A stretch of DNA of 64,000 nt from a bacterium (GCA_026709025.1 JAPOTT010000003.1:1-64000); one strand, 5' to 3'. Numbered from the stretch's first letter, positions 3 through 33,455 are shown. Translations and numbers: made by a program. The notes: generated by a model not told the origin, from the sequence alone.

Positions 3-3000
3 ACGGTCACTTTGTCGGCGGTGAGTGGTAAGCCGGTGACTGTTACATACACGCTTGGTGGCACGGCTTCAGCTCCAGCCGATTACACAGCTCCGAACCC
101 GTTGACCGTGACGATTCTGGCGGGTGACACGACGGCTGAGATTACGGTGCCGGTTAAAGGCGATGTGGTTGATGAGCCTGCTGAGACGGTGATTGTGACG
201 TTGGCTAGCGCTACGAATGCGTTGGTGTCTGGTGTTGATGGCGAGGACACGGGTACTGGCACGATCACTGATGATGATGCGACCCCTTCGGTGAACTTAG
301 TGGTTGCGCCAACAGAGGTGGCTGAGGGTGTGTCGAAGGCGGAGTCGGTGAGTGTGACTGCTTCTTTGAGTGGTACCAGTGTGGTGTTCGCTGATGCTAC
401 GACGGTGACAGTGAGTGTTGGTCAAAACACTGATAGTGCTAGGTCGGGGGTTGATTACACTGCGGTCGCGGCATTTGATGTCACGATTCCTGCGGGTGAT
501 AGGTCGGCTTCAGCGTCGTTTAGTTTTGATCCTGTCGACGACTTGTTGGATGAGCCTGACGAGACTGTCACTGTCCAAGGCAGTTCGGGTTCGTTGACGG
601 TGAATGATGCGAGTGTGACGATTGCGGATGATGATGGTGAGCCTTCTGCGTCGGTTGGTGATGCTACGGCGGTTACTGAGGGCAACGACACTACCAAGAC
701 CACGGATATGACGTTCACGGTCACTTTGTCGGCGGTGAGTGGTAAGCCGGTGACTGTTAACTACACGCTTAGTGGCACGGCTGAGGCTCCAGCCGATTAC
801 ACGGTGCCGAACCCGTTGAGTGTGACTATCGCTGCGGGTGACACGACGACTGAGATCACGGTTCCGGTTAAAGGGGATGTGGTTGATGAGCCTGCTGAAA
901 CGATCATCGTTACTTTGTCGGGTGCTGCTAATGCGTCTGTGTCTGGTGTTGATGGTGAGGACATGGGTTCTGGCACTATCACGGATGATGATGTGACTCC
1001 TGAGGTGAATCTAGTGGTTGTGCCAACAGAGGTGGCGGAGGGTGTGTCGGAGGCGGAGTCGGTGAGTGTGACTGTTTCTTTGAGCGGTACTGATGTGGTG
1101 TTCGCTGATGCTAGGACGGTGCGGGTGAGTGTGGGTAAGCCTGCTGATAGTGCTAGGTCGGGGGTTGATTACGCAGTGGTCGCGGCGTTTGATATTACGC
1201 TTGCGGCTGGTATGCGGTCGGCTTCAGGGAGTTTTAGTTTCGATCCTGTTGATGATGATTTGGATGAGCCTGACGAGTCGGTAACGGTGCATGGTTCGTC
1301 GGCTGGGTTGACGGTGAACGATGCGAGTGTGACGATCACAGATGATGATGGTGAGCCTTCTGTGTCGGTTGGTGATGCGGCGGCGGTGACTGAGGGGAAC
1401 GATCCTGCAACAACAGTTGATATGACGTTCACGGTGTCGCTCAGCGCGGTGAGTGGTAAGCCGGTGACTGTTACATACACGCTTTCTGGTACGGCTTCGG
1501 AGCCTGCTGATTATACGGAGCCTGATCCGTTGAGTGTGATTATCGCTGCGGGTGACACGACGGCTGAGATTACGGTGCCGGTTAAAGGCGATGTGGTTGA
1601 TGAGCCTGCTGAGACGGTGATTGTTACTTTGGTTAGCGCTACGAATGCGTTGGTGTCTGGTGTTGATGGCGAGGACACGGGTTCTGGCACGATCACTGAT
1701 GATGACGCTACGCCGCAGGTGAATCTAATGGTTGCGCCAACGGAGGTGGCGGAGGGTGTGGATGCTGCGGAGTCGGTGGTGGTGACTGCTTCTTTGAGCG
1801 GTACCAGTGTGGTGTTCGCGGATGCTAGGACGGTGCGGGTGGGTGTTGGTAAGCCTGCTGATAGTGCTAAGTCGGGGACGGATTACACAGCGGTAGAGGA
1901 TATTGCGATCACGATTGCGGCTGGTATGCGGTCGGCTTCAGGGAGTTTTAGTTTCGACCCTGTCGATGATGATTTGGATGAGCCTGACGAGCAGGTAACT
2001 GTCCACGGCAGTTCGGGCACGCTAACGGTGAACGATGCAACAGTGACGATTACCGATGATGATGGGGTGGGGGTGACTATCACGCAGAGTGGTGGTGATA
2101 CTGAGGTGTCAGAAGATGGTGGGACTGATTCTTATACGGTGGTGTTGACTTCGGAGCCTGTGGGGGATGTGACTGTGACGGTGACATCTGAGACTCCGGC
2201 GGCGTTGGTGTTGGATGGCCCTGATTCGCCGAATCCGGATAATCCGACAGCGTCTGAAACGCTGACCTTTACTTCTGAGAATTGGGATACCGCGCAGACG
2301 ATTACGGTAACTGGCGTGGATGATGATTTGGATAACACCGGTGATGAGCGGTCGGTGACTGTTACCCACGGTATTGCTTCTATGAACGACAGCGCGTATA
2401 ACGCGTTAGCCGATAAGACAGTCACTGTCACCGTGACCGATGATGATGGTGAGCCGGTGGTGTCGGTTAGCGATGCTATAGCGGTGGCTGAGGGCAACGA
2501 TCCTGCGACCACTACGGATATGACATTTACGGTGTCGCTCAGCGCGGTGAGCGGTAAGCCTGTGACTGTTAACTATGCGTTGAGCGGTACGGCTGAAGCT
2601 CCAGCCGATTACACGGCTCCGAACCCGTTGAGCCTAACGATTGTGGCTGGCCAGTTGACCGGGACGATCACGATACCGGTGCGCGGTGATGTGGTTGACG
2701 AGCCAAATGAGACGGTGATTGTGACGTTGGTTAGCGCTACGAATGCGTCGGTGTCTGGTGTTGATGGCGAGGACACGGGTTCTGGGTCGATCACTGATGA
2801 TGATGCGACTCCGCAGGTGAACTTGGCGGTTGCGCCAGCAGAGGTGGGGGAGGGTGTGTCGGAGGCGGAGTCGGTGAGTGTGACTGCAAGTCTGAGTGGT
2901 ACCAGTGTGGTGTTCGCTGATGTTAGGACGGTGCGGGTGAGTGTGGGTAAGCCTGCTGATAGTGCTAAGTCGGGGGTTGATTACACGGCGGTAGAGGATA

Positions 3001-5447
3001 TTACGATCACAATTCCGGTTGGTGATAGGTTTGCTACAGGGTCATTCTCATTCAATCCGACCGATGATGATTTGGATGAACCTGATGAGACTGTAACGGT
3101 GCATGGTCTGTCGGCTGGGTTGACGGTGAATGATGCGAGTGTGACGATTACCGATGATGATGGGGTGGGGGTGACTATCACGCAGAGTGGTGGTGATACT
3201 GAGGTGTCAGAAGATGGTGGGACTGATTCTTATACGGTGGTGTTGACTTCGGAGCCTGTTGGGGATGTGACGGTTACGGTTACGTCGGTTACGCCTGCTG
3301 CGTTGTTTTTGGATGGTCCTGATACGCCAAATCCGGATAATCCGACAGCGTCTGAAACGCTGACGTTTACTTCTGAGAATTGGGATACGGCGCAGACGAT
3401 AACTGTGACTGGGGTGGATGATGATGTTGATAATCCGGGTGATGAGCGGTCGGTGACGATAACCCACGATATAGCTTCTAGCGATGATAGTGCGTATAAC
3501 GCGTTAGCCGATAAGACAGTCACTGTCACCGTGACCGATGATGACGGGCCACCTGTGGTGTCGATAGTCGATGCTACGGCAGTTACTGAGGGTAACGACA
3601 CGGCGGCTACGACGGATATGACATTTACGGTTACTTTGTCGGCTGTGTCGGGGAAGCCGGTTACCGCCACCTACACGCTGGCCGGCACGGCTGAGGCTCC
3701 AGCCGATTACACAGAGCCGAACCCGTTGAACGTAACCATCGACGCGGGCCAGACCACGGGCACGATCACGGTTCTGGTTAAAGGGGATGTGGTTGATGAG
3801 CCAAATGAGACGATTATTGTGACCCTGGCCAGCGCTACGAACGCTACGGTTAGTACGGTTGAGGGTGCCGATACAGGCACTGGCACGATCACAGACGACG
3901 ACGATCCAGTGGTATCCACAGCCCTGCCTGTTGTGTCGGTTGTTGATGCAACTTCGGTACTTGAGGGCGACGACCCCACTGCATTGGTGGACATGATGTT
4001 CACCGTCATCCTGTCAGAGGTGAGCGACGAGGAAGTGACCGTTACTTATACATTAAGCGGCACCGCGATTGCTCCTGCTGATTATACGGAGCCGAACCAG
4101 ATGATTGTGGCGATCCCAGCCGGGCAGTCATCGGCCACCATCGTGGTTGCGGTGCGCGGCGATGTGATTGACGAGGACAACGAAACGGTGATTGTCACTT
4201 TGTTGAGCGCTACGAACGCAACGATCATAGGAACGCAGGACGAGGATGAAACCGAAGATCCCCAGACCGAGTTGCTACAGCAGGGTGAGCAGCCTGTGTC
4301 GCCGCAGTTAGGTGAGCCGCAGCAGGGTGGGTTTGTGTATGTGGTGTCTGAGGGTTTGGTTGCTGATGTGCGTGGGTTTGCGGGTGAGGTTAGTAGTGGG
4401 GTTGAGCATGTTGGGCGGTGGAATCGTGTGTTGGTTGCGTTTGGTGAGGATGTGCTGGGGTTTGTTGGTGAGCCGATGGGTGTTGTGGAGGCGCAGGGTT
4501 ATGTTGATAGGGGTTGGGTGCGTTGGGAGCCTGTGGTTGTGGCTCTCAAAGAGTTGGAGGTTGCGCGTCAACATCAGTGGGTGAGGTGTGCTCAAAGCGG
4601 ATCGCAGCCAGGTGAGCCGCAGCAGGACGATCTACAAGTTAAGGTGGAGCCAGAGTCGACACAACAGGGTGCGGCTACAGGCACCGGCATCATTATTGAT
4701 GACGACACAGCACCCATTAGCGTGACCTTGAGCGTGTCTCCTGCATCGGTGGCTGAGAATGTTGGGGTTGCTACAAGCATTAGGGTGACAGCCGTGCTGG
4801 GTGGCACCACAACGTTTGTGGAAGACACAGAGGTAACCGTGAAGGTGGGTCGGGCTGGTGACACCGCCGTGTCGGGTACCGATTACGAAGTTGTGGGTGA
4901 TTTCACTGTGACGATCCCCGGCGGCTCAAGATCGGCCAGCGGCACTTTTAGCCTTCTGCCGGTTGACGACAATCGCTTAGAGCAGTCCGAAACGATAACT
5001 GTTCACGGCATCGCAACCGGACTCACTGTTTTTAGTGCCACCGTTACGATAACCGACAACGAGGAACCAGTGGAACCGGTGGCCCCAGTGGAACCGGCAC
5101 AGCCGGTAGCCCCAGTGCAACCGGTAGTGCCTAAGTCACCGCTAAAGGTGTTTGTGGGCGACGCTTCGGCAGTAGTAGAAGGTGACGACCCTGATGCCAC
5201 TGTTGATATGGTGTTCACCGTGGCCCTTTCACGGGTCAGCAGCAAGGACGTTACGGTTATCTATGCCCTAGGTGGTACCGCAACGGGTGGCGTAGATTAC
5301 ATAGCGCCGGCTCTTCTGAGGACGGTAATTCCTGCAGGTAATTTGTCAAGTGTAATTACAGTGCCTGTTAAAGGTGATACACTTATTGAATCCGATGAGA
5401 CGGTGGTGGTTACCTTGCTGCGAGCTTTCAATGCACAAATTGCTTAA
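3..5447 (+). CDS. Giant Calx-beta repeat surface protein (5' partial)
   Basis: The frame is open to the left edge, so the start and any signal peptide lie outside the window. About 1,814 residues are visible, almost all tandem Calx-beta-type beta-sandwich modules ending in GTITDDD or VTITDDD, the usual calcium-binding loops. Two types alternate: A (SAVSGKPVTV...PVKGDVVDEP) and B (VNLVVAPTEVAEG...DLDEPDE). Two copies of a third module (TQSGGDTEVSEDGGTDSY) are interspersed. Around residues 1415-1555 one A module carries a long insert with a VADVRGFAGEV...GYVDRGWVRW segment; from memory this resembles a module recurring in other bacterial Calx-beta proteins. A Pro/Val/Glu linker (about 5086-5130) precedes a last A module that stops at FNAQIA, without the terminal GTITDDD strand. 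No membrane anchor is present. Likely role: extracellular adhesin or matrix protein. Confidence 0.85.
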   Translation, partial: TVTLSAVSGKPVTVTYTLGGTASAPADYTAPNPLTVTILAGDTTAEITVPVKGDVVDEPAETVIVTLASATNALVSGVDGEDTGTGTITDDDATPSVNLVVAPTEVAEGVSKAESVSVTASLSGTSVVFADATTVTVSVGQNTDSARSGVDYTAVAAFDVTIPAGDRSASASFSFDPVDDLLDEPDETVTVQGSSGSLTVNDASVTIADDDGEPSASVGDATAVTEGNDTTKTTDMTFTVTLSAVSGKPVTVNYTLSGTAEAPADYTVPNPLSVTIAAGDTTTEITVPVKGDVVDEPAETIIVTLSGAANASVSGVDGEDMGSGTITDDDVTPEVNLVVVPTEVAEGVSEAESVSVTVSLSGTDVVFADARTVRVSVGKPADSARSGVDYAVVAAFDITLAAGMRSASGSFSFDPVDDDLDEPDESVTVHGSSAGLTVNDASVTITDDDGEPSVSVGDAAAVTEGNDPATTVDMTFTVSLSAVSGKPVTVTYTLSGTASEPADYTEPDPLSVIIAAGDTTAEITVPVKGDVVDEPAETVIVTLVSATNALVSGVDGEDTGSGTITDDDATPQVNLMVAPTEVAEGVDAAESVVVTASLSGTSVVFADARTVRVGVGKPADSAKSGTDYTAVEDIAITIAAGMRSASGSFSFDPVDDDLDEPDEQVTVHGSSGTLTVNDATVTITDDDGVGVTITQSGGDTEVSEDGGTDSYTVVLTSEPVGDVTVTVTSETPAALVLDGPDSPNPDNPTASETLTFTSENWDTAQTITVTGVDDDLDNTGDERSVTVTHGIASMNDSAYNALADKTVTVTVTDDDGEPVVSVSDAIAVAEGNDPATTTDMTFTVSLSAVSGKPVTVNYALSGTAEAPADYTAPNPLSLTIVAGQLTGTITIPVRGDVVDEPNETVIVTLVSATNASVSGVDGEDTGSGSITDDDATPQVNLAVAPAEVGEGVSEAESVSVTASLSGTSVVFADVRTVRVSVGKPADSAKSGVDYTAVEDITITIPVGDRFATGSFSFNPTDDDLDEPDETVTVHGLSAGLTVNDASVTITDDDGVGVTITQSGGDTEVSEDGGTDSYTVVLTSEPVGDVTVTVTSVTPAALFLDGPDTPNPDNPTASETLTFTSENWDTAQTITVTGVDDDVDNPGDERSVTITHDIASSDDSAYNALADKTVTVTVTDDDGPPVVSIVDATAVTEGNDTAATTDMTFTVTLSAVSGKPVTATYTLAGTAEAPADYTEPNPLNVTIDAGQTTGTITVLVKGDVVDEPNETIIVTLASATNATVSTVEGADTGTGTITDDDDPVVSTALPVVSVVDATSVLEGDDPTALVDMMFTVILSEVSDEEVTVTYTLSGTAIAPADYTEPNQMIVAIPAGQSSATIVVAVRGDVIDEDNETVIVTLLSATNATIIGTQDEDETEDPQTELLQQGEQPVSPQLGEPQQGGFVYVVSEGLVADVRGFAGEVSSGVEHVGRWNRVLVAFGEDVLGFVGEPMGVVEAQGYVDRGWVRWEPVVVALKELEVARQHQWVRCAQSGSQPGEPQQDDLQVKVEPESTQQGAATGTGIIIDDDTAPISVTLSVSPASVAENVGVATSIRVTAVLGGTTTFVEDTEVTVKVGRAGDTAVSGTDYEVVGDFTVTIPGGSRSASGTFSLLPVDDNRLEQSETITVHGIATGLTVFSATVTITDNEEPVEPVAPVEPAQPVAPVQPVVPKSPLKVFVGDASAVVEGDDPDATVDMVFTVALSRVSSKDVTVIYALGGTATGGVDYIAPALLRTVIPAGNLSSVITVPVKGDTLIESDETVVVTLLRAFNAQIA

Positions 5448-6177
5448 ATGTTGTTTTATCTGGAGCCCTATTTTTATAGCAGTGCTGTTGTTGGGACTAA
5501 CCACCACAACAGCTAGCGCTCAACAAGATACAGTTGCTCAACAAGATACTGGCACGGGTACTGGAACGATCACAGATGATGATACAGCACCGGCGGTGTT
5601 GTCGCTGCGGGTATCGCCCACTTCGGTGTCAGAGGATGTGGAGGTTCCTCCAAGTATTACGGTGGTTGCGATTTTGGGTGGCACCACAACGTTTGCAACA
5701 GATACACTAGTAGCGGTACAGGTGGGTAGAGAGGGCGACACCGCAGTTTCAGGCACAGATTACGCTGCAGTTAGTGATTTCTTATTAACAATCCCAGCCG
5801 ACACTAGTTCAGCATCGGGCAACTTTACTTTGGCTCTAGTTGATGACAATTTAGTGGAAGAAACCGAAACCCTTACCGTGCATGGTACGGCCACTGGGTT
5901 AGTTGTGAGAGAAGCCACCATCATGATCATCGACAATGATTCTGAAGAAATCACTCCAGTGCCCACTCCTGTAGAAGTGGTTGAAGTCATACCTCCTGCA
6001 ACGCAGGAAGTTCTCGAAGAAGAGCTGGCCTACACCGGTGTAGATACCCGATTGCTCCTAATAATCGTGGCTACGTTAATTGCAGTTGGACTTATGTTTG
6101 CTGGAGCTTTCCGTTTCCTTGCCCCAGCCCGTTCTCGCTCCCGCTCCCAACAAACAAGCCAACAAACAAGGCGGTAG
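5431..6177 (+). CDS. Sortase-anchored Calx-beta protein with LAYTG sorting signal
   Basis: The start is placed at ATG 5431 because it yields a classical signal peptide (MHKLLKCC, hydrophobic core, TASA before QQDT). It overlaps the end of the giant upstream gene by 17 nt in another frame, so translation is probably coupled. The mature protein begins QQDTVAQQDTGTGTGTITDDD-like, which is only the last strand of a type A Calx-beta module. One complete type B module follows (about residues 55-175), then a Pro/Glu/Val linker, LAYTG, a hydrophobic helix and a basic tail (RSRSRS). LAXTG signals are the known substrates of class E sortases in actinobacteria, so covalent wall attachment is likely. Frame-shifting from the upstream gene would put a hydrophobic segment inside the repeat protein, so a separate secreted protein is preferred. 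Confidence 0.8.
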   Translation: MHKLLKCCFIWSPIFIAVLLLGLTTTTASAQQDTVAQQDTGTGTGTITDDDTAPAVLSLRVSPTSVSEDVEVPPSITVVAILGGTTTFATDTLVAVQVGREGDTAVSGTDYAAVSDFLLTIPADTSSASGNFTLALVDDNLVEETETLTVHGTATGLVVREATIMIIDNDSEEITPVPTPVEVVEVIPPATQEVLEEELAYTGVDTRLLLIIVATLIAVGLMFAGAFRFLAPARSRSRSQQTSQQTRR

Positions 6178-33290: not shown

Positions 33291-33455
33291 TTAGCGTATC
33301 GAGGTGAGTGCGGCATGCTCTTCTGATGTGGTCGGTAGGGGGGGGGGGGGGGTTGTGTAGCCCCCGATTACTTGTTGGTCGATTAGGCGCTGTCGTTCTT
33401 GGTCTAGGATCGCATGGATACTAGCTCGGATGGTTTGCTCGGTATGAGCTGGCGT
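33291..33455 (-). pseudogene. Truncated antitoxin fragment in frame after the MazF-like gene
   Basis: Directly after the TAA of the MazF-like gene the same frame stays open for about 55 codons: TEQTIRASIHAILDQERQ, then IDQQVIGGY, a run of prolines, and LPTTSEEHAALTSIR. The helical, Arg/Glu-rich part and the P-T-x-E-E ending resemble C-termini of MazE/CopG-type antitoxins. No ATG, GTG or TTG is available, so it is read as an N-terminally truncated remnant. The proline run is encoded by the G15/C15 tract. Confidence 0.45.
33338..33352. repeat. G15 homopolymer tract
   Basis: Fifteen consecutive G on the + strand, C on the - strand, in the antitoxin remnant. With 15 bases the remnant frame continues into LPTTSEEHAALTSIR; 14 or 16 would break it. 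Tracts of this length are prone to slippage and also to sequencing and assembly error. Confidence 0.85.

Follow-up and report, generated by a model that had tools for sequence, protein, structure and literature searches.

How is a giant secreted protein held at the cell surface when its C-terminus carries no anchor, and what is to be made of a last domain that stops one strand short, with the missing strand at the head of the next protein? The locus that raises these questions lies in a genome of the actinobacterial class Acidimicrobiia. The window referred to below is the whole stretch of DNA that was analysed, 64,000 nucleotides (GCA_026709025.1 JAPOTT010000003.1:1-64000), and its 5′ end is the edge of contig C3. 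The source organism is probably a sponge symbiont; several homologous loci belong to sponge-associated MAG series.

The window opens within a very long ORF:

3..5447, + strand: C-terminal part of a giant, putatively secreted Calx-beta repeat protein, 1814 aa, its 5′ end off the contig

This ORF consists of alternating type A and type B modules, has no anchor at its C-terminus, and ends in ...DETVVVTLLRAFNAQIA before the stop codon, or, in an alternative quotation of the same end, ...GDTLIESDETVVVTLLRAFNAQIA. Since the window begins at the contig edge, only the C-terminal part of the ORF is contained in it. Contig C49 breaks off within an ORF of 4356 aa made of the same A/B repeats, the N-terminus of which has signal-peptide features. 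C49 ends in a B module and C3 begins in an A module, and because the repeat phase agrees, the two are probably parts of a single gene that exceeds 6000 codons and is interrupted by an unassembled gap. The ORF on C49 is thus likely to be the N-terminal part of the giant protein. Calx-beta domains are present in its first 1764 residues, and no anchor domain was found there.

A run of about 14 G lies immediately 5′ of the GTG start of the giant ORF (C49 ~82148-82162, equivalent to L009 ~5149-5163). A G run right before a start is the typical layout for slipped-strand phase variation. Runs of at least 11 G gave 154 forward and 117 reverse matches in this genome, overlapping matches counted (33338-33352, + strand, is an example in the window), and given this frequency homopolymer phase variation may be common there. 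The same genome has Calx-beta-type ORFs of 3824 aa (L011, contig C14) and 5267 aa (L012, contig C31, running to the end of the contig), which together with the giant ORF make at least three giant surface proteins in 2.2 Mb.

The end of the giant ORF and its junction with the next gene are as follows:

5142..5444, + strand: last type A module of the giant protein, LKVFVGDAS...FNAQIA, truncated after strand F
5431..5447, + strand: 17-nt overlap of the giant and small genes, which are in different frames (ATG 5431-5433, TAA 5445-5447)

The preliminary description had this module stopping at FNAQIA, one strand short, and both the ORF and the profile coverage agree. Its placing of the split between the penultimate and last strands can be refined to the F-G loop: strand F is whole and strand G is absent from the giant protein. 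The 17-nt overlap was given correctly to the base, and the description held in all its other checkable details. The Pfam Calx-beta model matches the truncated module at positions 23-94 of 119 with 21 bits against a cut-off of 27, which is not a full-length family match; an intact type A module is matched at positions 22-118. A profile was made from the 12 intact type A modules of the giant protein (117 positions), and it matched the truncated module at positions 3-100 with 112.5 bits. By profile coverage, therefore, the module is a domain short of one edge strand. The conserved acidic positions of the family are retained (GVDY, GDTLIESDE), and there is no decay as far as the stop codon. The split is very probably real.

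Downstream, the small gene is laid out as follows:

5431..6177, + strand: gene of the small, predicted wall-anchored protein, 248 aa, ATG at 5431, stop codon ending at 6177
5431..5520, + strand: predicted signal peptide MHKLLKCCFIWSPIFIAVLLLGLTTTTASA, GC 41%, unrelated to Calx-beta sequence
5521..5550, + strand: Q-rich N-terminal extension of the mature protein, QQDTVAQQDT
5551..5583, + strand: strand G with its DDD motif, GTGTGTITDDD, an orphan here and lacking from the last module of the giant protein; modelled unpaired
5584..5940, + strand: complete type B Calx-beta module, pLDDT about 96
5941..6024, + strand: Pro-rich acidic spacer
6025..6174, + strand: cell-wall sorting signal, consisting of LAYTG, a membrane helix and an Arg-rich tail

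The product thus begins with MHKLLKCCFIWSPIFIAVLLLGLTTTTASA, followed by QQDTVAQQDTGTGTGTITDDD, a remnant of the F-G loop together with strand G and its DDD, and then by the type B module. It had been claimed that the mature protein starts with QQDT...GTGTITDDD, the missing strand, and continues with a full module and an LAYTG anchor. Translation bears this out, and the parts of a sorting signal are present. The Pfam Calx-beta model covers the module from 1 to 119 of 119, a full-length match at 25.4 bits, slightly below the curated cut-off of 27, and the module is modelled as a complete sandwich. When the mature N-terminus was appended to the truncated module of the giant protein, the match to the type A profile extended to positions 3-117 and rose to 121.9 bits. 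With this N-terminus shuffled (n=200), the mean was 113.9 bits and the best 122.2, so that the complementarity is roughly a 1-in-100 event or rarer.

The signal peptide is assigned by its features. A crude signal-peptide test is passed with cleavage between MHKLLKCCFIWSPIFIAVLLLGLTTTTASA and QQD; the pass rates of this test are 1.3% for random open frames matched in composition and 2.9% for the ATG frames of the window, true secreted proteins among them. An in-frame signal peptide would thus arise by accident in about 1-3% of cases, which suggests that export of the anchor piece was probably favoured. Of 48 unique 5′-closed ORFs that contain such modules at the fetched loci, one has a signal peptide directly before an orphan strand G, the small gene itself. 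No Shine-Dalgarno sequence is evident before this gene, and taken with the overlap this suggests that the translation of the two genes is coupled, an arrangement that fits the overlap.

An overlap of 17 nt between different frames might alternatively be a site of programmed frameshifting, by which some molecules would become a fused, sortase-anchored form with the core of the signal peptide as an internal membrane segment. No slippery site or stimulatory element is evident, however, a membrane segment within a loop of a soluble beta-sandwich is implausible, and we consider this explanation highly improbable. A sequencing or assembly error, either a false indel or a chimeric join, could also have broken one continuous gene, and the assembly does consist of 56 contigs, a fragmented state in which even the giant gene is interrupted at a contig edge among repeats. 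Yet Calx-beta sequence is found in no frame of 5448-5535, the joined frames would put a hydrophobic signal peptide inside the domain, and the junction DNA is not repeated elsewhere among the sequences compared. Since the DNA in between reads, in its open frame, as a signal peptide and not as Calx-beta sequence, a simple indel artefact is unlikely, and error of either kind is improbable. The junction DNA was not found in viral contigs.

The LAYTG motif and tail of the small protein resemble the sortase tails of other proteins in this genome (LADTGVNTSLL...) and in the genus. There is one sortase gene in the genome. Its best match is the class E model, at 156.5 bits against a cut-off of 160, and the enzyme is accordingly described here as class-E-like. 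Class E sortases use LAXTG signals (PMC5148588). The small protein has the layout of their substrates, namely a signal peptide, an LAXTG motif, a hydrophobic helix and a basic C-terminal tail, as do other proteins of this genome, and its LAYTG is a predicted substrate of the single sortase. On these sequence features, export and wall anchoring of the small protein are well-supported predictions. Two other loci (L122, C31:53500-57000; L123, C14:30500-33500) encode three small secreted proteins that carry LADTG sorting signals; one is fasciclin-domain-like by eye, and all are probable substrates of the same sortase.

The origin of the split can be approached through the preceding A-B unit of the giant protein:

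3921..4229, + strand: strands A-F of the penultimate type A module, pLDDT >90
4230..4676, + strand: F-G loop insertion of about 150 residues in this module, modelled disordered
4677..4706, + strand: strand G and DDD of this module, TGTGIIIDDD, modelled docked
4707..5063, + strand: penultimate type B module, of all paralogues the closest (58%) to the module of the small protein
5064..5141, + strand: Pro/Val-rich linker EPVEPVAPVEPAQPVAPVQPVVPKSP

The last A-B unit is a copy of this one that has diverged, with 58% identity between the B modules. Alignment of the DNA of the two units is continuous through strand F, is interrupted where the insertion and the signal peptide begin, and is regained at the Q-rich segment that precedes strand G. 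The signal-peptide segment therefore occupies the place of a loop insertion. Its GC content compares with 55% in the rest of the giant ORF. No source of this DNA was found, either at the giant gene's own start or in any of the fetched loci. The F-G loop insertion of the penultimate module contains an unnamed domain, VVSEGLVADVRGFAGEVSSGVEHVGRWNRVLVAFGE...AQGYVDRGWVRWEPVVVALKELE, with a core at 4341-4571 that has no match in Pfam or NCBIfam. Relatives of this domain are found at L012, in the same genome (60%), and at L028.

An AlphaFold2 model of window positions 3921-5060, made with an alignment of modules from the window and related loci, covered the penultimate A module, insertion included, and the B module. 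Strands A-F were predicted with pLDDT >90, and residues 120-234 of the insertion were disordered, with values <50. Strand G, at residues 253-259, was docked with pLDDT of about 96. It lies some 150 residues from strand F, and docking was thus modelled despite a long loop. The best fold matches of this model were the tandem CBDs of NCX1 and CALX. The best PDB sequence matches were likewise NCX/CALX CBDs, and in the alignment the strand-G segment lies opposite the DDD of CBD1. In the model of the small protein, residues 31-53, which include the orphan strand, had no secondary structure and a pLDDT of 52-68, and a helix followed LAYTG.

In other Acidimicrobiia, most of the giant Calx-beta ORFs with readable C-termini end, by eye, in SLH-like sequence of the same polypeptide (...CPDQPVTRAQMASFFVRA...; L128, L129, L135, L138, L141, L142, L144 and L145). 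The same kind of Calx-beta array thus uses different wall anchors, and the presence of anchor-type ends, mostly within one polypeptide, indicates that anchoring of these proteins matters. None of these ORFs with readable C-termini has a sortase tail or is followed by a separate sortase-tail gene. Two candidates for further split cases, L143 (the same as L055) and L091, which end in DND, were rejected, as the last module is complete and no sortase-tail gene lies in the stretch read. Neither an orthologue of the small protein nor a split form was found in 198 relatives and 395 class genomes (597 genomes searched) or in GTDB contigs.

That the split is seen in one genome only, without sign of conservation or selection, is in keeping with another, equally simple history. 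The split could be recent, the small protein a short wall protein on its own, the giant protein released or held by other parts, and the complementary ends functionless. Any fission in this loop would leave complementary ends, so that the strand could be a leftover, and in two giant Calx-beta proteins of other Acidimicrobiia (L143, L151) the chain likewise stops without an evident anchor, there behind a complete module. Against this, chance would seldom put a working signal peptide in frame with the anchor, strand G is at exact consensus, and the truncated module has not decayed. Such a relic is a possibility to be taken seriously, short of a probable one.

The preliminary description had proposed that the small protein completes the domain of the giant one by donor-strand complementation. 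Part of this stands: the acceptor lacks strand G, and a secreted, sortase-type neighbor starts with that strand, a free N-terminal strand that matches the missing one in sequence and is modelled unpaired with low confidence. Binding between the two would be an extrapolation from these features. Fission followed by strand donation is suggested by a break exactly in the loop that left two complementary pieces, and by an orphan strand that copies the final strand of the family exactly (GTGTITDDD) after residues that are not conserved. It is also suggested by the modelled docking of the preceding module's strand G across 150 residues, by the retained acidic positions, by the LAYTG tail and the class-E-like sortase, and by duplication of the penultimate unit. 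The single-chain models agree with donor-strand complementation without proving it, and leave it plausible.

The best reading of the locus is a real gene fission at a permissive loop, both products being secreted. An ancestral giant Calx-beta surface protein would have borne its own sortase anchor, and the split would have arisen in its last type A module, within the F-G loop, where a signal-peptide-encoding sequence may have replaced a loop insertion like that of the preceding module. Both products would be exported separately. The class-E-like sortase would fix the small one to the wall through LAYTG, leaving GTGTITDDD at its mature N-terminus. Strand G could then dock at the edge left open in the truncated module of the giant protein and contribute the Ca2+-binding DDD, restoring the A-B tandem without a covalent bond. 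By analogy with the CBDs of NCX, the DDD on the donor strand would make the joint Ca2+-dependent. In this way a Ca2+-dependent clamp made by one strand would link a protein of >6000 residues to the wall anchor, and the tether could be released when Ca2+ falls. Fission, separate export and a strand-G clamp to the anchored partner form the best explanation of the whole, which we put forward tentatively. That a natural split Calx-beta domain serves as such a non-covalent clamp, with the small protein as donor, is itself quite possible rather than probable, and strand donation and a functionless relic appear about equally likely.

Several known systems resemble this one in part. The CBD1-CBD2 tandem of NCX1/CALX (PF03160; PDB 3us9, 2dpk) has the same fold by sequence and structure, with DDD at the end of strand G. 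The F-G loop of CBD2 hosts the variable splicing segment and tolerates long insertions (PMC9820601). In known CBDs the fold is completed in one chain, whereas here the last module is without strand G and a neighboring protein carries it. Donor-strand complementation occurs in chaperone-usher pili, in type V pili and in archaeal threads (PMC9715654); in the model proposed here, too, one secreted protein could lend its N-terminal strand to an Ig-like beta-sandwich that is incomplete in another. Unlike in pili, no polymer, chaperone or usher enters the model, the donor would be a wall anchor for one giant protein, and the domain is Calx-beta, with putative Ca2+ ligands on the strand. Class E LAXTG substrates share the signal peptide, the motif (here LAYTG), the helix, the basic tail and a sortase of this class or like it (PMC5148588), but here the anchored protein is small and starts with an orphan strand from its neighbor's domain. 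The same long tandem arrays, thousands of residues in length, are seen in the giant Calx-beta proteins of sponge-associated bacteria and of other Acidimicrobiia. Where their C-termini are readable, these are mostly SLH-like (Acidimicrobiia) or barrel-like (Gram-negative) and in-chain, and none has a separate sortase-tail gene.

We found no report in the literature that links Calx-beta with donor-strand complementation, nor any of split Ig-like anchors. SpyTag/SpyCatcher are engineered from split CnaB domains, the parts of which recombine with formation of an isopeptide bond. There the domain is likewise cut before one strand; here the arrangement would be natural and non-covalent. Even as a relic, the locus is a gene fission inside a domain that left both halves intact and, as predicted, secreted. 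If strand donation is correct, it would be a natural two-part surface anchor outside pili, with a beta-sandwich split between adjacent genes, and a Ca2+-switchable protein tag might be derived from it. The case would also illustrate how a giant surface protein can part from its anchor through gene fission at an insertion-tolerant loop.
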